Positions 1,997-42,283 of a stretch of DNA of 43,900 bases are shown here, piece by piece. The position numbers and the translations under genes were made by a program. This DNA comes from Candidatus Peribacteria bacterium (GTDB lineage Bacteria; Patescibacteriota; Gracilibacteria; Peribacterales; Peribacteraceae). The notes below the pieces were generated by a model. The model saw only the letters and a program-made list of their open reading frames with translations. It searched no databases and was not told where the DNA came from. The stretch spans positions 1 to 43,900 of the forward strand of contig JAHFJP010000007.1 in assembly GCA_023245765.1 (NCBI GenBank). Reading direction: 5' to 3'. How positions within the stretch are numbered: the first letter of the stretch is position 1; each line of letters begins with the position of its first letter.

Positions 1997-3439
1997 GTGC
2001 AACGTTTCCGTGAACAACTGACACTCGTTCTCATCGCCCTCCTCCCGTTCCACGCTCTCCTCGTGACGGTGGGGACGAAATTCCTGCTCGGTCCAGGTCA
2101 CGCACCAATGCCAGCACTCGCGATCTGGAAAGAGATACTCTTAGGCCCAATACTTCTCTTTAGCTCAGGAGAGATCTTCATGAGAGTGAAAAGTGAAAAG
2201 TTAAAAGTGAAAAATATTTTTTTAATAGATTTGATTGATGTTTTTATCCTCATACTCATTGGAATTGGGATCACGCTCTTCTTCTACCGCCCCTGGATGA
2301 CGACGACTGGGTTGGTGCTCGGATTCAAATACGATTTTATTCCTCTCATTGCGTTTCTGGTACTGCGGAGAGTCCAATGGTCTGATCAATTCCGTGCGCG
2401 CGCCGAAGGCGCGCTCCTGTGGGTGGCCGGAATTGTCGCGCTTTATGGCATCCTCACGGTCTTCGCTCCCAAAGGGTACTTCCGCCTTCTCGGCTACAGC
2501 GACGCACATTCGTTGTATCTACCCAATGGTCCGCTCGCGGCGTTCCAGCAAATCAGTGGCAGCGCAATCCGGCGGGTGCAGAGTACGTTCAGCGGACCAA
2601 ATCAATTTGGCATTTGGTTATTGATTCCTCTGAGCATCCTCGCGACACGAATTTTTCAGTCAAAAAAATTCAAGAAGCATGAATCAAGAATTTTGATGAT
2701 GTTCGGTGTCTGTCTCATTGTTGCATTGATGCTTACCTTCTCGCGCTCTGCGTGGATCGGCGCCTTTGTGATCGCTGCTGTTGTCGGTTCGAAACATCTC
2801 CCCCGACGTGTGTTCCGCGATGCACTCATCGGAATCGTCTCGATCCTTGCCATTGCCGGAGTCGCGGCATCCCTCATCGCCCCGTCGGTCTTCCTGCGCG
2901 CGACCTCCACGCGCGAGCACATCGTCCGGCCGCTGAAGGCCATCCACGAGATGATCCGCTATCCGCTGGGCATGGGTCTGGGTGCGGCTGGGCCCGCCGC
3001 CAACCGCACGCATGAGCCATGCGTGTTCCTAGAGCCAGGGAATGATCCTTCGTGGGCGAAGAATGCCCCGACACTTTGCGTCTTTGTGGGGCAAACGCAG
3101 GTACAGCCGGCGAATCATCACTGCGACTGTGCCCTGCTGCCCGAGAGCTGGTATCTCCAAGTCGGCGTCGAAATGGGAGTGCTCGGCTTTCTTTTGTACA
3201 TATGTTTGGTGGGAGTTGTGCTGAGCCGACTTGCAGTGAAAAGTGATCCTTCGTCAGGCTCAGGATTAAAAGTGAAAAATGGCGAAACCCGAACTTTTCA
3301 CTTTTCATTTTTCACTTTTCTCTTCTTCTTGGGCATCAGCATCGCCGCGTTATTCCTCCATGCCTGGGAAGACGCCGCAGTGGCCTATACGGCATGGGTA
3401 TTCGTAGCATCAAATTTCTCCAAATCTTCCTCCGTTTGA
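1997..3439 (+). CDS. O-antigen ligase / Wzy-type polymerase-like membrane protein
   Basis: Multiple hydrophobic segments, TFSGPNQFGIWLLIPLS, LTFSRSAWIGAFV, PESWYLQVGVEMGVLGFLLY; GTG at 1997 preferred over 1937, which lies in a repeat. Confidence 0.7.
   Translation: MQRFREQLTLVLIALLPFHALLVTVGTKFLLGPGHAPMPALAIWKEILLGPILLFSSGEIFMRVKSEKLKVKNIFLIDLIDVFILILIGIGITLFFYRPWMTTTGLVLGFKYDFIPLIAFLVLRRVQWSDQFRARAEGALLWVAGIVALYGILTVFAPKGYFRLLGYSDAHSLYLPNGPLAAFQQISGSAIRRVQSTFSGPNQFGIWLLIPLSILATRIFQSKKFKKHESRILMMFGVCLIVALMLTFSRSAWIGAFVIAAVVGSKHLPRRVFRDALIGIVSILAIAGVAASLIAPSVFLRATSTREHIVRPLKAIHEMIRYPLGMGLGAAGPAANRTHEPCVFLEPGNDPSWAKNAPTLCVFVGQTQVQPANHHCDCALLPESWYLQVGVEMGVLGFLLYICLVGVVLSRLAVKSDPSSGSGLKVKNGETRTFHFSFFTFLFFLGISIAALFLHAWEDAAVAYTAWVFVASNFSKSSSV
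2186..2215. repeat. GTGAAAA-type repeat, in frame inside O-antigen ligase-like CDS
   Basis: GTGAAAAGTGAAAAGTTAAAAGTGAAAAAT encodes VKSEKLKVKN. Confidence 0.65.
3235..3278 (+). repeat. 44-bp repeat copy 1 (also at 6693-6736), in frame
   Basis: AGTGAAAAGTGATCCTTCGTCAGGCTCAGGATTAAAAGTGAAAA identical in both places; followed by inverted CTTTTCACTTTTCATTTTTCACTTTTC. Confidence 0.9.
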
Positions 3440-4733: not shown

Positions 4734-5668
4734 ACATCAGAGGGTGTTACATGATATCCCGATTCAACAACTTCCTGATCAGGAATATCCATCAGCATCA
4801 ACGAAATCCGGAAATCATGGATGATGTTGTCGGGGTCCTTTCTCTCCAGAACATCCAACGCGTTCAGAGTGCGACCAATTTGATTAATTCCCTGAGCGAT
4901 CAGATTGCTGCAGTATCGCCGGTTCACGCTCTGTGACTTTGCCTGAACATTTCCCACAATACTGAATAGTTCATACAACATTTGCGATCGTAATTCTGCT
5001 TGCAGTCGTACGAAATAGGGCTGGTCTCCCTGTATCTGCTCTTGAATCGTCAACATTTCCGCCTGAGAGCAACGGGCAATGATTTCGATGTTCCTCGCGG
5101 CAGCGATTTCCATTGCAGTCGGCTCGCGATCAATGTCTTGTCGATCGGCCTGTTCCCGGCACAGGCACAACAGGCAGTCCATCCATTCGCGCTGCATTCG
5201 CTTTGGAGATTCTGTCAGCGTCGTCTCCTTGTTCGCCTCTGCCTTGGCGTATTGTGAGTATTGCAACACGGGATCCTGCAGGATTTTCTCCAAATCCTGG
5301 AGCTCCATGAATTTATCTGCCAGTGTCCCTTCTTCTCCTTTTGTCAGTGGGATGTTTTCTCGGTCGAGCAATTTGCGGTACATCTCCATGAGCGCCCTTT
5401 TTCGGTCCGATCGTTCTTGTCCATCCTTCTTCCCGTTGCCTTGAAGATATGTTCTGAGAACGTCTACTTCTTTGGAGATTGCAATGGAAAAATCCAACCC
5501 CCGATGCGTGAGCACATGCATTTGTATACTTTGAAACCGATGAATGCGTCCGATGGCTTCATGAGTATCCAACCGTGAAAAATTTGCAGCCAATCCATCG
5601 ATACCAGACATGGCTCTTTGTTCCTGCGCCCATCCGAGGTAATTGTGCGTTATGCACTCACCAGACAT
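4730..5668 (-). CDS. hypothetical protein
   Basis: 312-aa ORF, translationally coupled arrangement with downstream ORF. Confidence 0.6.
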   Translation of the reverse strand: MSGECITHNYLGWAQEQRAMSGIDGLAANFSRLDTHEAIGRIHRFQSIQMHVLTHRGLDFSIAISKEVDVLRTYLQGNGKKDGQERSDRKRALMEMYRKLLDRENIPLTKGEEGTLADKFMELQDLEKILQDPVLQYSQYAKAEANKETTLTESPKRMQREWMDCLLCLCREQADRQDIDREPTAMEIAAARNIEIIARCSQAEMLTIQEQIQGDQPYFVRLQAELRSQMLYELFSIVGNVQAKSQSVNRRYCSNLIAQGINQIGRTLNALDVLERKDPDNIIHDFRISLMLMDIPDQEVVESGYHVTPSDV

Positions 5669-5742: not shown

Positions 5743-7581
5743 ATGGTACACAAGGGCTCGATCGTCATCCTGGACTTCGGAGGTCAATACGCACATCTCA
5801 TCGCCAACCGTGTCCGACGTCTTGGGGCGTATTCGGAGATCAGAGTCTCAGAAACTCCAGCAAAAGAACTCAAGGGTGCAGCTGGGATCATCCTGAGTGG
5901 CGGACCACAGAGTGTGTACGAAAAGGGAAGTCCGACTGCAGATCACGGCATCTTCGAGCTCGGTATTCCCATCCTCGGCCTCTGCTACGGACATCAGTGG
6001 CTCGCGCATGCGCTCAATGGCAAGGTGAGTCCCGGGAAAACGAAAGAATACGGTCACACGATGATCGAACGTAGCGGCGAGTCGCCCATCTTCAAAGGTC
6101 TTCCGCAGATCATGACCGTCTGGATGTCGCACGGCGACGAAGTCACTCAGCTTCCGAAGGGATTCGTCGCGATGGCAAAGTCATCCGTCTGTTCGGTCGC
6201 TGCGATGGCCAATGAGAGCCGCAAGATCTACGGCCTGCAGTTCCACATCGAAGTGACGCACACGGAGCATGGCATGGAAATGCTCAAGAAGTTTGTCGCT
6301 CTTTGCAAAACGACGCCGTGGAAAATTGATTCGTTCGTCGATTATGTCGGCGGACAGATCAAAGAAGAGGTCGGCAAGTCCAAGAAAGTCTTCATGCTCG
6401 TCTCCGGCGGCGTCGATTCCACGGTCGCATTCACGCTACTCAACAAAGTTCTCGGCCCATCGCGCGTCCAGGGCATGCTCGTCGATACGGGATTGATGCG
6501 CAAGGACGAAGTTGCGCAGATTCGGGCGGCATTCAAGAAGTTGAAGATCAAGAATTTGCATATCGAAGATGCATCGGATGAGTTCTTCAAAAATTTGAAG
6601 GGCGCGACGGATCCGGAGCAGAAGAGGAAGATCATCGGGAGGACGTTTTTGGATGTTCAGCAGCGGGTGAGTGAGAAGATGGGGCTGACGGGAGTGAAAA
6701 GTGATCCTTCGTCAGGCTCAGGATTAAAAGTGAAAAGTGACGAGTGGTTACTCGGTCAAGGCACCATTTATCCCGATACGATCGAAACCGGCGGGTCGCG
6801 GCATGCTGATCAAATCAAAACGCACCACAACCGCGTTGATGCGGTGCAGAAGATGATCGATGCGGGGCAGGTGATCGAGCCGCTCAAGGAGCTCTATAAG
6901 GATGAAGTCCGGATGCTGGGGGAAGAGCTGGGGCTGCCGAAGGAACTTGTGTGGAGGCATCCTTTCCCTGGGCCGGGGTTGGGAGTGAGGATTCTTTGTA
7001 CGAACGAAGTGAAAAGAGAAAAGAGAAAAGTGAAAAGTGATGGAAGTATTTCAGTGCCTCATGAGATCCTCCCCGTTCGCTCTGTCGGAGTTCAGGGAGA
7101 CGGCAGGACATACCGGCATGCAGTTGCGCTCTTTTCACGGCATCCCTGTCACGTGACGCCGGAACATAAGGCATTGGCGACATCGATTCCGAATACCAAT
7201 AAGGAGATCAACCGTGTACTGCTCTGTACATCGCATGATCGCCCGGTGGAATTCACCGTGACGCCGGGGACGGTCACCCGCGAGCGCGCCGAACTTCTGC
7301 GGGAGGCGGACGCCATCGTCAGTGAGGAGATGCGCGCGGCGGATCTCTACGGCGTCATCTGGCAGTTCCCGGTCGTGCTGCTTCCATTTGGAACCAAGAA
7401 AGGAGGTCAGTCGATCGTCCTCCGTCCGATTGTCAGTGTCGACGCCATGACGGCGAATGCATATCTACTTGAACAGAGTGTTCTCGAAACAATCACCCGC
7501 CGGATTCTCGATCTCAAAGGTATCGATGCGGTGTTCCTGGATCTCACGAATAAGCCGCCGGGAACAATTGAGTGGGAGTGA
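5743..7581 (+). CDS. guaA: GMP synthase (glutamine-hydrolysing)
   Basis: GATase ILSGGPQSVYE, LGLCYGHQW, LQFHIEVTHT; ATP-PPase LVSGGVDSTVAF; QGTIYPDTIE; HPFPGPGLGVRIL; C-terminus LTNKPPGTIEWE. Confidence 0.95.
   Translation: MVHKGSIVILDFGGQYAHLIANRVRRLGAYSEIRVSETPAKELKGAAGIILSGGPQSVYEKGSPTADHGIFELGIPILGLCYGHQWLAHALNGKVSPGKTKEYGHTMIERSGESPIFKGLPQIMTVWMSHGDEVTQLPKGFVAMAKSSVCSVAAMANESRKIYGLQFHIEVTHTEHGMEMLKKFVALCKTTPWKIDSFVDYVGGQIKEEVGKSKKVFMLVSGGVDSTVAFTLLNKVLGPSRVQGMLVDTGLMRKDEVAQIRAAFKKLKIKNLHIEDASDEFFKNLKGATDPEQKRKIIGRTFLDVQQRVSEKMGLTGVKSDPSSGSGLKVKSDEWLLGQGTIYPDTIETGGSRHADQIKTHHNRVDAVQKMIDAGQVIEPLKELYKDEVRMLGEELGLPKELVWRHPFPGPGLGVRILCTNEVKREKRKVKSDGSISVPHEILPVRSVGVQGDGRTYRHAVALFSRHPCHVTPEHKALATSIPNTNKEINRVLLCTSHDRPVEFTVTPGTVTRERAELLREADAIVSEEMRAADLYGVIWQFPVVLLPFGTKKGGQSIVLRPIVSVDAMTANAYLLEQSVLETITRRILDLKGIDAVFLDLTNKPPGTIEWE
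6693..6736 (+). repeat. 44-bp repeat copy 2, in frame inside guaA
   Basis: Exact match to 3235-3278; encodes VKSDPSSGSGLKVK in both genes. Confidence 0.9.
7011..7041. repeat. GTGAAAA-type repeat inside guaA
   Basis: GAAAAGAGAAAAGAGAAAAGTGAAAAGTGA-type tract encoding EVKREKRKVKSD in a variable loop. Confidence 0.6.
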
Positions 7582-11271: not shown

Positions 11272-11375
11272 GGTAAAGAGGGCGAGAAACGGTTAAGAGG
11301 GTAAAGAGGAATTTTTTCGTTTCCTCTTTACCTTCTTCACCCTCTTTACCTTCTTCATCCTCTTCGTTACCCTTC
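11272..11375. repeat. inverted array of ~9-nt unit; possible terminator hairpin
   Basis: GGTAAAGAGGA...TCCTCTTTACC stem and tandem CTCTTTACC|TTCTTCACC|CTCTTTACC|TTCTTCATC. Confidence 0.7.
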
Positions 11376-16240: not shown

Positions 16241-16671
16241 TCCACGATCAACACCCCCTCCAGATGATCCACTTCGTGCTGCACCACGCGCGCGTCGAAG
16301 TTCTTGAGCTTCCGCTGCTGCTTTTTGCCCTTGAGATCCTTGTATGTGACGGTGATCTCCACGGAGCGGGGGATCATCAGCCAGACGTTCGGGAGACTCA
16401 GACATCCTTCCTGATCGAGATCCTTCTCTTTGCTCTTCCCGCTGATCACGGGGTTGATCAGCGGCGTTATTTTGCCGCCGATGACGGCGATGCAGATGCG
16501 CTCGGTGCGCGCCACCTGTGGTGCCGCGAGACCCACACCGCTGGCTTCCTTCATTGTTTCAATCATGTCTTTAATCAATTGCTTCACGTCTTTGGTCACC
16601 GCCGGGACCGGTTTGGTCTTTTTCCGGAGGATCGGATTATCCGGCCCAATAACAATCGGAAGAATAGGCAC
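16225..16671 (-). CDS. def: peptide deformylase
   Basis: GVGLAAPQ, EGCLSLP, HEVDHLEGVL motifs. Confidence 0.95.
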   Translation of the reverse strand: MPILPIVIGPDNPILRKKTKPVPAVTKDVKQLIKDMIETMKEASGVGLAAPQVARTERICIAVIGGKITPLINPVISGKSKEKDLDQEGCLSLPNVWLMIPRSVEITVTYKDLKGKKQQRKLKNFDARVVQHEVDHLEGVLIVDYATS

Positions 16672-16683
16672 ACCGAAATTATA

Positions 16684-16722
16684 AAGCTAACCAGCTAAAA
16701 AGCTAAACAGCTAAAAAGCTAC
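16684..16722. repeat. 8-nt tandem repeat AGCTAAMM
   Basis: AGCTAACC AGCTAAAA AGCTAAAC AGCTAAAA AGCTAC between def and the exonuclease gene. Confidence 0.75.
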
Positions 16723-19131: not shown

Positions 19132-20964
19132 ATGACTGTATTGTTGACGCTCTTCCTCGCCGGCCTGATCACCATCCTGCTCCCCTGCATCCTCCCGCTG
19201 ATCCCGGTCGTCTTGGGTGTGAGCATTGCGGGCAAGAGCAGGCTCAGGCCACTCGTCACGATCGGGGGCATGGTGCTGTCGTTCGTCCTCTTCACATTCA
19301 TTCTCCAGACGCTCCTCAGCAGGTTTGTCGCGTTTGCCGACATCATCCAGATTTCGACGTACTACGTGCTGCTACTCTTTGGCATTTGTTTCCTCACCCA
19401 TAACAAGAACATTCAGCTGATTGTTGCGGTGCTCGGCGGGTACTTCTATTACAAATACGGATGGATCACCATCTCGATCGCGGAAGTCGGCGGGTGGCTG
19501 GCAATTGAAATCGGCGGACGGGTCGCAGCGAAGATTCAGCAGATCGGATCGGATGTGCAGCAGGCGGCACGATCCGGCATCGGTTCCGAATCACTCGTCA
19601 CGGCATTCATCGTCGGACTCACGCTCGGTTTGGTCTGGGTACCCTGCGCGGGCCCCGCACTCGGCTTTGCCCTCACGCTTGTCCGCAACGAACCGGGACT
19701 GATGGCGCTCGGCGCTCTCTCCGCCTACGGCATTGGCGCGGCGGTTCCCCTCCTCATTGTCGCCTATGGCGGCCAGTGGGCGGTGCATTCGGTGCGAGCG
19801 CTCAGCCAATACACCGGCCGCATCAAGCAGTTTGCGGGCGCGGTGCTCATTATGACCGCAATCGGATTCCAGTACGGATGGCTCATGACATTTCAAACAT
19901 GGCTAACAGATATCACCGGATTTGGATCGTTTGGATCGAAAATAGAAGAGAATTTGTTTCAGCAGGAAGTATCATCATCGAGTACCTCGGTCCCGTCGGT
20001 CTCCTCGGTTTCTTCGGTTCCCTCTTCTGTGACTCTCCCCACCCTTCCAAAAATCTCACGCGCTCCAGAGCTTACAGGTCTAGGTCCATGGCATAACTCG
20101 CAGCCGTTCACGATGGCGTCGCTCAAAGGCAAAGTTGTCCTCGTCGACTTCTGGACCTACAGCTGCATCAACTGCATCCGGACGCTGCCGTATATGGAGG
20201 GATACTGGAAAAAGTTTAAAGACACTCCGTTTGTTCTGCTCGGCGTGCATACTCCCGAGTTCGTGTTCGAGAAGGATGAGGGAAACGTGAGCGACGCGAT
20301 CAAGCGCCACGGGCTCACGTACCCCATCGCGCAGGACAATGATTTCGGAACGTGGAACGCGTTCGCGAATCGTTACTGGCCGGCGAAGTATTTGATCGAT
20401 GCCGACGGATACATCCGGTACACGCATTTCGGCGAGGGCAATTACGACGAAACGGACCTCGCCATCCAGAGTCTGCTCAAAGAGATCGGCGCAACGGCGA
20501 AAGGTCCGATGATTGGCGCGGATGCGTCCGAGGGGGGAGGCCGCGAAACGTCACCGGAGACCTACGTCGGTTCGCGTAACTGGCCGTCGTTCAGTAACAG
20601 CGCCGGCGACCCCGATACCGCGATCCACACCTACGTCATGCCGGAATCCGTGCCACTCCATCAGTATGCGCTCAGCGGCGACTGGCAGCTGTCGGTCGAC
20701 GAGGAGAGTCAGGTACTGCGGAGCACCGAAGGAGCAATCCGGTATCACGCGATGGGATCCGAAGTGAATCTAGTCTTGGGTATCGAAGAAGGATCAAAAC
20801 CCGTTCCCGTCGATATTTTCATTGATGGAATGAAAACGAAGACGATCACGGTCCGGGCGCACGATCTCTACAATCTCTTCACGGGCACGTACGGCGAGCA
20901 TGACGTTACACTCAACATTCATGGAAAGGGCGTAGCGGCGTATGCGTTCACGTTTGGGTCATAG
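19132..20964 (+). CDS. DipZ-like protein: CcdA/DsbD-type membrane domain + TlpA-like thioredoxin + C-terminal beta domain
   Basis: LLPCILPLIPVVLGVS, VWVPCAGPALGFAL; VVLVDFWTYSCINCIRTLPYMEGYWKKF; C-terminal WQLSVDEESQVLRSTEG...HDVTLNIHGKGVAAYAFTFG. Confidence 0.88.
   Translation: MTVLLTLFLAGLITILLPCILPLIPVVLGVSIAGKSRLRPLVTIGGMVLSFVLFTFILQTLLSRFVAFADIIQISTYYVLLLFGICFLTHNKNIQLIVAVLGGYFYYKYGWITISIAEVGGWLAIEIGGRVAAKIQQIGSDVQQAARSGIGSESLVTAFIVGLTLGLVWVPCAGPALGFALTLVRNEPGLMALGALSAYGIGAAVPLLIVAYGGQWAVHSVRALSQYTGRIKQFAGAVLIMTAIGFQYGWLMTFQTWLTDITGFGSFGSKIEENLFQQEVSSSSTSVPSVSSVSSVPSSVTLPTLPKISRAPELTGLGPWHNSQPFTMASLKGKVVLVDFWTYSCINCIRTLPYMEGYWKKFKDTPFVLLGVHTPEFVFEKDEGNVSDAIKRHGLTYPIAQDNDFGTWNAFANRYWPAKYLIDADGYIRYTHFGEGNYDETDLAIQSLLKEIGATAKGPMIGADASEGGGRETSPETYVGSRNWPSFSNSAGDPDTAIHTYVMPESVPLHQYALSGDWQLSVDEESQVLRSTEGAIRYHAMGSEVNLVLGIEEGSKPVPVDIFIDGMKTKTITVRAHDLYNLFTGTYGEHDVTLNIHGKGVAAYAFTFGS
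19978..20031 (+). repeat. 9-nt tandem repeat (TCGGTYNCN) inside the dipZ-like CDS linker
   Basis: CTCGGTCCC GTCGGTCTC CTCGGTTTC TTCGGTTCC encodes SVPSVSSVSSVPSSV. Confidence 0.7.
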
Positions 20965-25713: not shown

Positions 25714-25749
25714 AAGAAGTGAAAAATGAAAAATGAAAAGTGAAAAATG
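25714..25749. repeat. GTGAAAA-type tandem repeat upstream of glnA
   Basis: GAAGTGAAAAATGAAAAATGAAAAGTGAAAAATG. Confidence 0.7.
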
Positions 25750-30513: not shown

Positions 30514-30545
30514 CGTCGGGACCGGGCTCGGGACCGGGACCGGAA
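30514..30545. repeat. 6-nt tandem repeat (CGGGAC)n between thyA and folA
   Basis: CGGGACCGGGCTCGGGACCGGGACCGG. Confidence 0.7.
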
Positions 30546-37809: not shown

Positions 37810-38763
37810 TCATCCGTCGACAATCAATTTCGTCCCGGTCCGGAGCATTTGTTTCCGCAAATCAATTCCCTGAAGTATGCAACCATCGTCGATCACGCAG
37901 TCGCGCAGCGTGCAGTCGCGGATCGTCACATTGTCGAAGATCATGCAGTCGGTCAGTTCGCTCCGCTCAATCATGCAATTGCGCCCGACCGTGACACTCC
38001 CGCGTACGGTTGTCTCCTTTATTGTCGCGTCCGGATCGACCAGCGCCTGTTCCCCAATCAATTCCCTGTGCGCGTGCAGGTAACTTCCGAATGAACCGAT
38101 GTCCATCCATGGCTCCGAAAAGATGAAGCAGTCGACGGTCATGTTTCTGTGCAAAAATTCCTCAAAAATTCCCCCGAGGTTGTCGGGCTTCACTTTCGCG
38201 AATTCCATCAGGACCGGGAGGGCGGACTTGGGGATGATCACGCAGCCGGTGCTGACCAAGGTGGAGCTTGGAGACTTGGGTTTCTCTTCAAATCCCGTGA
38301 CCCGTGTTCCTTCTCCTTTTATGACGACGCCAAATGCCTTCGCTCTCTCCAGATCTCCCACGTCATGGGCAGCCAGCAGGGGATTTCCGCTGAAGGCTTT
38401 CAGAAATGTCTCCATCGAGAATCCCAGGTAGTTATCTCCCGTCAGGATCAGCAGATCATCATCAATGCTCTCCGCCCTCACCCACTCGGCGATCGAGCCG
38501 AGCGCGCCGAGTTTGTGGTCGTCACGACTGGTGCCTTCAACCACGAGTTCCATTCCTGAACGCTGCAGACCGTCGAGCCACTGTTTAAATCCATCCGCAA
38601 ATGCGGCATTGGTACTCACAGTGATCGGCATGCCGGACGGAATCTTCTCGATCAAATGCGTGATGATGGGTTTGCCGGCCAAGGGGAGCAGCGGTTTGGC
38701 CCGCTTTTCCGTCAACGGCCACAAACGAGTGGCGAAACCGCCGGCGAGGATAAAAGCATGCAT
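37810..38763 (-). CDS. NDP-sugar nucleotidyltransferase with C-terminal left-handed beta-helix repeats
   Basis: MHAFILAGGFATRLWPLTEKRAKPLLPLAGKPII; TGDNYLGF; hexapeptide-like C-terminus. Confidence 0.88.
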   Translation of the reverse strand: MHAFILAGGFATRLWPLTEKRAKPLLPLAGKPIITHLIEKIPSGMPITVSTNAAFADGFKQWLDGLQRSGMELVVEGTSRDDHKLGALGSIAEWVRAESIDDDLLILTGDNYLGFSMETFLKAFSGNPLLAAHDVGDLERAKAFGVVIKGEGTRVTGFEEKPKSPSSTLVSTGCVIIPKSALPVLMEFAKVKPDNLGGIFEEFLHRNMTVDCFIFSEPWMDIGSFGSYLHAHRELIGEQALVDPDATIKETTVRGSVTVGRNCMIERSELTDCMIFDNVTIRDCTLRDCVIDDGCILQGIDLRKQMLRTGTKLIVDG

Positions 38764-38869
38764 GAGGAAACCGAGGAAACCGAGGCAACCGACGAAACCG
38801 AGGATGCCTCGTTGAAAGTATACTCTTCGGTTTCCTCGGATTCATCGGTTGCGTCGGTTGCGTTCACCT
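38764..38869. repeat. inverted array of 9-nt unit (GAGGAAACC)n / (TCGGTTNCN)n
   Basis: GAGGAAACC GAGGAAACC GAGGCAACC GACGAAACC ... TCGGTTTCC TCGGATTCA TCGGTTGCG TCGGTTGCG. Confidence 0.8.
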
Positions 38870-39667: not shown

Positions 39668-39670
39668 GGG

Positions 39671-39764
39671 ATTAGAGTATTAGAATATTAGAATATTAGG
39701 AATAACGGGTGGAGGCTGCACAAAATCGTAGTCCTAGTATTCTATTACTCTAGTATTCTTTCTT
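39671..39764. repeat. inverted array of 8-nt unit (TATTAGAA)n / (TAGTATTC)n
   Basis: ATTAGAGTATTAGAATATTAGAATATTAGG ... CTAGTATTCTATTACTCTAGTATTC. Confidence 0.75.
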
Positions 39765-40772: not shown

Positions 40773-42184
40773 TCCCCGTCACTATAGAGAAACTCACCTT
40801 CGGAGGTGCAGGTTTGACCCATGTCGATGGTTTAACCGTGTTCGTCCCGGACACGATTCCGGGCCAGCAGGTGGAGATCGAAATTACCAAAAAGAAGGAC
40901 ACGTTTGCGGAAGCGAAGGTCGTCAAGGTTCTGCGCCGCGCCAAGGACGAAATTCCCGCGCGCTGCACGCACTTTCACGACTGCGGCGGATGCATCTGGC
41001 AGAATCTCCCGTACGACAAGCAGATCAGTTATAAGGAGGACATCGTCCGCGAGACACTCACGCACCTTACACCGGTGGACGAAGAGCAACGCAAACAACT
41101 CGCCGGCCGCGTGATCAACATCGTTCCGAGTCCGCAGATCTACCACTATCGCAACAAACTCGAGTTCAGCTTTGGATACCAGTCGATGCGCACCGAGGAA
41201 AAAGCCGGCCGGCGTCTCTACTTCGACGAAGGACCGAGCATCGGGTTCCATCAGCCGGGTCAATGGTCCACGATTCTGCCGATCACCGAGTGTCACCTCT
41301 ACGACGAGCAGGTGGGGGTGCTCCTCGCCGACGTCAAACGCTTCATGGAGCAGACGCGGCTCCCGGTGTTCAATCCCAAAACAAACAAAGGAATGCTTCG
41401 CAATCTCCTCCTGCGCCGCGGCGTCCACACCGGCGAGCAGATGATCTGCTTTTTGCTCCACGCGCGGAAAAAAGAACTCGAGCCGCTCTTCCAACAGTTC
41501 CTCCGTGCGTTCGGCGGGCGCCCGCACCTCGCGTCGCTCCTCATCGTCGAACATATGGGCCTCCACGAGAAGCCGGAGTTCCCCAAAGTCCACACGCTCA
41601 TCGGCAAGCCCACCATCACCGAGCGGCTCTTTGATCTCAGCTTCGAAATCTCGCCGTTTTCGTTCTTTCAGACCAACACGCTCGCAGCCGAAAAACTCTA
41701 CACCGCGATCGCGCAGGCTGCAGCACTGACAAGCCGCGATACCGTGCTCGATGCCTACTGCGGCATGGGCACGATCGGGCAATATCTGGCGCGGTTTTGT
41801 CAGAGAGTCGTCGGCGTCGAGAGCCATCCTTCCGCGGTTGATGATGCGCTCAAGAGCGCGGGCCGCAATCGCATCGGCAACATCAGTTTCTATAAAGGAC
41901 GAGCCGAGCAGGTGCTCCTCGATCAGCTCAAACCCGGGGGCAAATACAAATTCGATGTCGTCGTGCTCGATCCCCCCCGCGCGGGGCTCCATCCCAAAGC
42001 CCGCGATGCGGTTCTCGCGCATCAACCGGAGAAGATCGTCTACGTCTCGTGCAACACCGCGACGTTCGCACGCGATCTCGGGGAGTTCTTAAAGGGAGGG
42101 TATGACCTCAGGACAATCCAGCCCGTCGATCTGTTCCCGCATACAGCACATATTGAGACGGTGGCGTTGTTACAGAAAAAGTAA
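40766..42184 (+). CDS. 23S rRNA (uracil-C5)-methyltransferase, RlmD/TrmA family
   Basis: TRAM-like N-terminus; CTHFHDCGGCIWQNLPYDKQ; SFFQTNTLAAEKLY; VLDAYCGMGTIGQYLA; VVLDPPRAGLHPKA; IVYVSCNTATFARDL. Confidence 0.93.
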   Translation: MSIPVTIEKLTFGGAGLTHVDGLTVFVPDTIPGQQVEIEITKKKDTFAEAKVVKVLRRAKDEIPARCTHFHDCGGCIWQNLPYDKQISYKEDIVRETLTHLTPVDEEQRKQLAGRVINIVPSPQIYHYRNKLEFSFGYQSMRTEEKAGRRLYFDEGPSIGFHQPGQWSTILPITECHLYDEQVGVLLADVKRFMEQTRLPVFNPKTNKGMLRNLLLRRGVHTGEQMICFLLHARKKELEPLFQQFLRAFGGRPHLASLLIVEHMGLHEKPEFPKVHTLIGKPTITERLFDLSFEISPFSFFQTNTLAAEKLYTAIAQAAALTSRDTVLDAYCGMGTIGQYLARFCQRVVGVESHPSAVDDALKSAGRNRIGNISFYKGRAEQVLLDQLKPGGKYKFDVVVLDPPRAGLHPKARDAVLAHQPEKIVYVSCNTATFARDLGEFLKGGYDLRTIQPVDLFPHTAHIETVALLQKK

Positions 42185-42283
42185 CCGAAGAATCCGACGG
42201 AACCGAGGGAACCGAGGATTCTTTACTTTTCCAAAAACCAATCCTCGGTTGCTTCGGTTTCTTCGGTTACGTCGGTTTCCTTC
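42181..42283. repeat. inverted array of 9-nt unit (GGAACCGAG)n / (CTTCGGTTN)n
   Basis: GTAACCGAAGAATCCGACGGAACCGAGGGAACCGAGGATT ... AATCCTCGGTTGCTTCGGTTTCTTCGGTTACGTCGGTTTCC. Confidence 0.8.

Follow-up and report, generated by a model that had tools for sequence, protein, structure and literature searches.

Paired inverted arrays of short units in a Peribacteria genome keep their architecture and place while the unit word changes between species

Why should a short intergenic stretch consist of near-repeats of one 9-nt unit facing near-repeats of its reverse complement, and why should the same layout return elsewhere with another unit? The locus that raises this question lies in a 43,900-nt stretch of DNA (the window), which is the entire contig C68 of a 1.45-Mb, 71-contig MAG of a Peribacteria (CPR) bacterium with relatives among the Candidatus Peregrinibacteria/Peribacteria. 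In the array at 38764-38863, five GAGGAAACC-like units of 9 nt stand opposite four TCGGTTNCN units. The left arm (38764-38804, + strand; 4.6 units of GAGGAAACC, in the phase CGANGNAAC; TRF score 68) belongs to the family named here F1a; the loop (38805-38826) includes GTATACTC, with a partial match in the loop of a sister species (ATTATACTC), and the right arm (38827-38863, - strand) holds, according to TRF, 4.1 units of TCGGTTNCN, the reverse complement of F1a. When folded as RNA, 38760-38866 reached -47.8 kcal/mol (z -4.8 vs dinucleotide shuffles).

The eight arrays listed in the preliminary description of the window, five inverted and three one-sided, were all recovered at their positions. 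Besides the array above, the inverted ones are an F4 element at 1915-2002 (GTGAAAA and TTTTCAC units, fold z -4.4), an F5 element at 11272-11375 (GGTAAAGAG and CCTCTTTAC units, z -5.9), an F3 element at 39668-39761 ((GANTANTA)3-GG, a 32-nt loop and CC-(TANTANTC)3, z -5.8), and a second F1a element at 42178-42282 (z -6.4), between a TRAM/RNA-methyltransferase gene and rlmH. For each of these five paired arrays, none of 200 dinucleotide shuffles was as stable. The one-sided arrays are a lone F2 arm at 16683-16721 (- strand; AGCTAANN), at a junction where the sister species has a pair of a different unit, a lone F4 arm at 25714-25749 (+ strand; GTGAAAA/ATGAAAA) and a 6-nt array, CGGGAC, at 30516-30543 (+ strand), without an inverted partner. 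Four more arrays, absent from the earlier list, lie in frame within genes. The Wzy_C-like gene at 1997-3439 hosts two F4 arrays in opposite orientations, at 2185-2213 (+ strand; RVKSEKLKVKN, with the stop-avoiding unit GTTAAAA) and at 3293-3324 (- strand; TFHFSFFTFLF). A third F4 array (7007-7040, + strand; EVKREKRKVKSD) is in the GMP synthase gene (5743-7581), where GTGAAAA arrays occur near 6726 and at 7007-7040, before the C-terminal domain; its product of 612 aa is long for GuaA. The fourth, of F1 type (19985-20024, - strand; TSVPSVSSVSSVPS), lies in the linker of a DsbD/thioredoxin protein and is shorter in the sister species. A search of the window against Rfam 15 gave no match above the gathering score.

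Virtually the whole genome was then covered, with a home-made hexamer gene caller (1222 genes, 83% coding) and a detector of inverted tandem elements that required two 24-nt arms, complementary at 18 or more of 24 positions and each at least 62% self-similar at a lag of 6-10. In this analysis, we detected 98 elements, vs none in an order-3 Markov copy of the genome; applied to E. coli K-12 (150 kb), the same detector found none, and in the contigs from the relatives (1.11 Mb) it found 74. Tandem arrays of period 5-20 numbered 290 in the genome (163 of them intergenic) and 37 in the Markov copy (three intergenic); periods of 7, 8 and 9, as well as twice these values, were overrepresented. With the exception of five elements inside called genes, the 98 are mostly intergenic, and about one gene junction in 12 is occupied in this compact CPR genome. 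Neither rare coincidence nor assembly artefact holds as an explanation, as the elements are present in dozens of independent assemblies and in frame within genes; MAG sequences may contain errors, but the independent assemblies agree on the elements. All P values given here are nominal, each for a single test.

The unit had been taken to be specific to its locus, which did not hold, as the families are common to the whole genome and specific to the lineage. About seven words recur genome-wide: NGNAACCGA and two relatives, TTAGCTNN, GANTANTA, GTGAAAA and GGTAAAGAG. Labelled by regular expressions as five families with F1 subfamilies, they account for 88 of the 98 elements. F1 (9 nt, CGANGNANN), with a stable CGA-G core, comprises the subfamilies F1a (AACCGA, 20 elements), F1b (GACCGA, 8) and F1c (AAACGA, 10). 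F2 (8 nt, TTAGCTNN) has 22 elements, F3 (8 nt, GANTANTA) 18 and F5 (9 nt, GGTAAAGAG) six, while F4 (7 nt, GTGAAAA) occurs as four pairs and mostly as single arms. The arrays at 38764 and 42181, for example, are of one family, whose core word has 64 matches genome-wide with at most one mismatch, vs three for the reversed word, and the unit of the array at 1922 is found again at 2185, 3293, 6726, 7007 and 25720. Throughout, three to five tandem units of 7-9 nt combine a fixed core with variable positions; F2 and F3 each leave two positions free, while their core positions are 89-99% fixed. The grammar of F3 is strict: a left arm of, as a rule, three units is followed by GG, and after a loop of 20-45 nt (mostly 32-36) come CC and the three units of the return arm. 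The unit logos contain no G3 tracts, so that the units are not of the G-quadruplex-forming Xanthomonas/Nostoc type.

Within each family the order of the arms is fixed, the same word being on the left in 86 of 86 elements, and wherever an arm has an inverted mate at up to 130 nt, the two form an 'in' pair and never an 'out' pair. The preliminary description had proposed a local process in which a unit and its reverse complement are amplified jointly, for example by template switching at hairpins; local slippage combined with such switching would also cover the polymerase slippage invoked in the literature. Genuine recent expansions do exist, at C8:23380-23471 (a 16-nt dimer, x5.8) and C52:26918-26990, and an indel of one unit separates two species at C62. 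However, the families are shared genome-wide with a polarity that never flips, and the variable letters of the two arms have no clear match: arm-to-arm identity at these positions was 0.44 in F2 and 0.35 in F3, vs 0.47 and 0.35 for shuffled partners, with a weak excess in F1 (0.45 vs 0.40, P 0.017). Slippage is expected to make neighbouring units more alike, whereas adjacent units in F2 and F3 are less alike than chance (P 0.001 or less; F1 showed no such effect), with excess identity at lag 2. The mismatch at variable positions and the dissimilar neighbours in F2 and F3 thus argue against slippage and also against copying of one arm from the other. As the origin of the arrays, slippage is contradicted by these results, and as a general explanation it is very improbable; it remains as a minor later process. 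The 16-nt dimer (AGCTAACAAGCTAAAC) is an expansion of the F2 right arm, seen also at C52:45389-45442, and in these dimer expansions true slippage has acted on an array that was already there.

No near-identical sequences of the REP kind were found among the elements of the genome, the best pairwise identity being 0.89 over 80 nt and the median best 0.54. Loops are not common to the Peribacteria copies and are mostly unique to each copy. A comparison of the F3 loops with the genome gave matches of 12-17 nt, no more than expected by chance, and the mean similarity of the loops to one another was marginal (P 0.03); a promoter-like TATACT word is present in a few loops but is not general. Two F2 elements 500 nt apart (C45:16000-16087 and 16587-16673) share their right arm, which is a local duplication. 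A separate inverted-repeat family, AATGACTAATGATAAATCNTTAAG...ATTAGACATT, has conserved arms (C14:12824-12932, C34:2677-2776 and C58:6719-6803); its C58 copy is kept in the sister species, and it looks like an ordinary MITE.

The genes flanking the elements are oriented ++ in 32 cases, -- in 27, -+ in 17 and +- in 14, compared with 365, 360, 211 and 217 for all gene pairs. Because this mix is that of the genome background, the elements are not tied to convergent 3' ends or to promoters. They do abut stop codons, whatever the gene orientation: the median distance was -2 nt on the stop side vs 28 nt on the start side (P 3e-7). Strong predicted hairpins adjoining stop codons would suit bidirectional intrinsic terminators, but there was no enrichment between convergent genes (14 of 90 elements vs 217 of 1153 pairs), elements are also present between divergent genes and within genes, and any stem would serve a terminator, so that hairpin strength fails to explain the tandem near-repeats. 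We therefore regard a terminator role as barely plausible.

The copies within genes follow the reading frame. Peptides such as SEKLKVKSEK and FHFSLFTFH (F4) or TEGTEGTEGT (F1) are encoded, and the in-frame GTGAAAA arrays often use GTTAAAA where TGA would fall in frame; the words of F2 and F3 contain stops, and no array of either family was found within a gene. Gains can also be recognised: at C8:30401, C41:4187 and C46:5664, one species has an element where the genes of the other overlap (gaps of -4 to -8). This placement is that of insertions filtered by tolerance. In alignments of empty sites by eye, element edges were not sharp and no target-site duplication was recognised.

To follow junctions between species, we used a sister species of the same genus (G002; ~74% DNA identity), of which 472 kb, a third of its genome, was compared. 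Among the 110 comparable junctions, 14 were occupied in both species, nine only in our genome, 15 only in the sister species and 72 in neither (OR 7.5, P 8e-5); limited to spacers of 60-200 nt, the corresponding counts were 14, 3, 6 and 12 (P 0.006). The distance from element to gene was kept to 6-7 nt between species, vs 24-27 nt when permuted. At 13 of the 19 double-occupied junctions judged convincing by eye, the word or subfamily differed. The earlier observation that the architecture repeats while the unit sequence differs is thus borne out, and more strongly across species, where orthologous junctions carry different units; as had also been argued, decay of REP or IS sequences describes such junctions poorly. 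Orthologous loops were slightly more alike than permuted ones (11.6 vs 9.35), to which same-family cases contribute in part, and most had no recognisable homology.

At the 38764 locus, nearly all units read AACCGA in our genome and AAACGA in the sister species, and the loop tail TATACTC is kept; of the other congeners, G001 has almost no spacer there and G003 a 46-nt spacer without an array. At the methyltransferase-rlmH junction, the sister species has an F1c element instead of F1a. Some of the ~60 Peribacteria loci at this junction lack an array, while at least 12 have an inverted one, with words as varied as ACGARTK, NNTTGAR, NNNNTGC, NNNNCCA, GAAAGARA and others. The word ATGARNN was seen only in G002 among four congeners. 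The F2 pair pattern is present in three of 288 genomes of the class (ours with 14, G026 with three and G041 with one), as is the exact F3 grammar (ours with 10, G034 and G241 with one each). Words are therefore lineage-bound, and the architecture spreads further.

Conservation of place raises the possibility of a host function, in which proteins that organise the chromosome or regulate globally would bind the tandem units, as similar paired sites in Geobacter metallireducens have been read, and selection would keep the core and the place while the units drift with the protein. The fixed core with free spacer positions is consistent with this, as are the conserved places (in co-occupancy, distance to genes and loop score) and the F2 elements found at the same junction in two species, which keep the core while the loop and the variable letters differ. 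Yet several unrelated families coexist in each genome and different ones occupy the same place in sister species, copies lie in frame in unrelated genes, one of them essential, gene orientation is not preferred, and presence varies between congeners. We consider this explanation possible but doubtful.

Some loci suggest instead that the word changes in place, each junction having one ancestral element in which the units of both arms are replaced in concert by a homogenising or templated process. One is a FemAB-like gene (C3:22593-22741, i.e., L004:2593-2741, and L191:15070-15218), with two in-frame arrays around a conserved coding stretch of ~75 nt; between our genome and the sister species, both arms have switched between the words GTGAAAA and GAGAATT. 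This gene is the best single locus in which to trace the change of a word. The retained loop tail at 38764 points the same way, and so does C47:65470, where F5 in one species is in phase with F1c in the other. However, homogenisation should even out the variable positions, whereas F2 and F3 neighbours differ and arms mismatch; most loops are not recognisably homologous, and the pattern is equally obtained when tolerant junctions are reused independently. An ancestral element homogenised in this manner seems quite unlikely. That junctions keep a fold-back element in the long term, with the word of both arms rewritten in concert while loop and flanks stay, the core remains fixed and set positions are free, we hold to be rather unlikely. 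Such rewriting might rely, for example, on a short template acting in trans, from which arrays are synthesised at DNA ends, or on selection by a protein with drifting specificity.

The same architecture was observed in a distant lineage. In a Desulfobacteraceae MAG, CTAAAGTGN arrays numbered 42 forward and 45 reverse (control 0), the forward arm coming first wherever two opposed arms lie close. These arrays belong to a ~240-nt repeat that is present in dozens of copies, some full and others partial, so that the body is copied with its ends, as in a MITE, which is not the case in Peribacteria. In two of the ~240-nt copies (L172:1235-1472 and 4830-5090), the loop is inverted relative to the arms.

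We favour, with slightly less than even confidence, the reading that the arrays are dispersed fold-back insertion elements with units recognised by a putative trans-acting factor, because the polarity is fixed, each end has several tandem sites, gains are seen, some copies are in frame and the Desulfobacteraceae analogue is copied. Each element would consist of two arms, with three to five near-repeats of a 7-9-nt unit per arm; the order of the arms is fixed, and the loop between them is mostly unique to the copy. Insertion would take place at many chromosomal sites, and the elements that persist would be mainly those right behind stop codons or, if their units are stop-free, those that serve as linkers in the reading frame of a gene. 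Recognition of the unit core would occur in trans, and the most likely reader is a protein that binds or recombines DNA and contacts several tandem sites at either end, in the manner of a transposase with multiple end sites. The set of families would change between lineages, and tolerant junctions would be refilled by whichever family is active. By an arithmetic based on the 110 junctions, independent insertion alone yields the observed co-occupancy if ~43% of junctions are tolerant and about half of these are filled. Against fold-back insertion stand the unshared loops and the lack of near-identical elements, which mean that recent copying of whole elements is not seen in this genome, as well as the failure to recognise a target duplication by eye and the lack of an adjacent recombinase; the FemAB case also suits change in place better than reinsertion. 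For Peribacteria, two models thus remain: reinsertion at tolerant junctions, which we think the more probable source of the changed words, or words rewritten in place.

Y1 transposases are few in the genus (one in our genome, five in G001 and one each in G002 and G003), and none is flanked by arrays. Only one of these eight loci is near an element, an F2 copy ~1 kb off and behind another reading frame, so that no RAYT (Y1) gene was found beside elements of its family. A search for autonomous elements, in the form of a gene flanked by arms of the same family, yielded no more than three pairs, all distant, of which one lies in the Wzy_C-like gene of the window. Reverse transcriptase genes (PF00078) are present in our genome and G002 (L250:526-2298, on C57, and L249), with masked bases nearby, and absent from G001 and G003, where few elements were seen; four genomes are too few for this to serve as evidence.

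The elements are a variant of paired tandem arrays already known, and unexplained, in Xanthomonas and Geobacter. Xanthomonas has (GGGANTN)n arrays, mostly of four units, with 70-75 inverted pairs per genome, lying mostly between the same genes in two species with changed length and sequence and having no explained function; in Nostoc, the repeat is the G-rich heptamer GGGGA(T/C)T (Rehm et al. 2015, PMC4692102). Our elements resemble these in their fixed core, spaced variable positions, inverted pairs and intergenic bias. Where those genomes have a single G4-forming family each, ours has about seven, unrelated to one another, with units of 7, 8 or 9 nt that are not of G4 type; in addition, units are replaced at a given junction and some copies lie in frame within genes. 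Geobacter metallireducens has three to five tandem degenerate 7-8-mers, mostly in opposite-strand pairs at variable distance (classes 1-3), which were named 'global regulator binding sites' without a test, and a GGACCGG x4 element that also occurs within genes (Aklujkar et al. 2009, PMC2700814). These sites are likewise paired tandem degenerate short units of several classes per genome, some in genes, whereas the main text of that account gives neither cross-species unit replacement nor polarity statistics.

REPINs of the REP-RAYT system are inverted doublets with a spacer, form hairpins, and occur in many extragenic copies and several families, along with singlets (Bertels and Rainey 2011, PMC3116915). 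Inverted doublets with a spacer and several sequence classes per genome are also found here, but REPINs are near-identical palindromes with an adjacent RAYT, in contrast to tandem near-repeats with no RAYT adjoining. The TAACTGA repeats of Beggiatoaceae are short intergenic tandem 7-mers across distant lineages (MacGregor 2015, PMC4679880). They and the cyanobacterial STRR share with our elements the short tandem 7-mers between genes and the distant lineages, but they are almost exclusively direct repeats (one inverted case) with a largely constant unit before start codons. Animal fold-back (FB) elements are inverted repeats of short tandem subrepeats, and Rickettsia palindromic elements (RPE) are hairpins in frame within genes; both differ from our elements in size, sequence and host. 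We found no description of intergenic arrays in CPR bacteria in the literature.

What had been reported piecemeal is extended here by the persistence of place and architecture across species while the unit word changes, by the invariant polarity and by the obedience of gene-internal copies to stop-codon rules. Scattered repeats thereby become a class with testable rules, pointing to a putative factor that reads words of 7-9 nt in trans; it is probably widespread in uncultured bacteria and would either drive a new type of miniature insertion element or organise chromosomes. In viral contigs, matches to F1 and F2 words were mostly isolated, and a few contigs have arrays of the same design. On one IMG/VR contig (L260:3554-14687) there are five inverted arrays of AGGCTRA, and TCTGATCAGA forms the centre of two.
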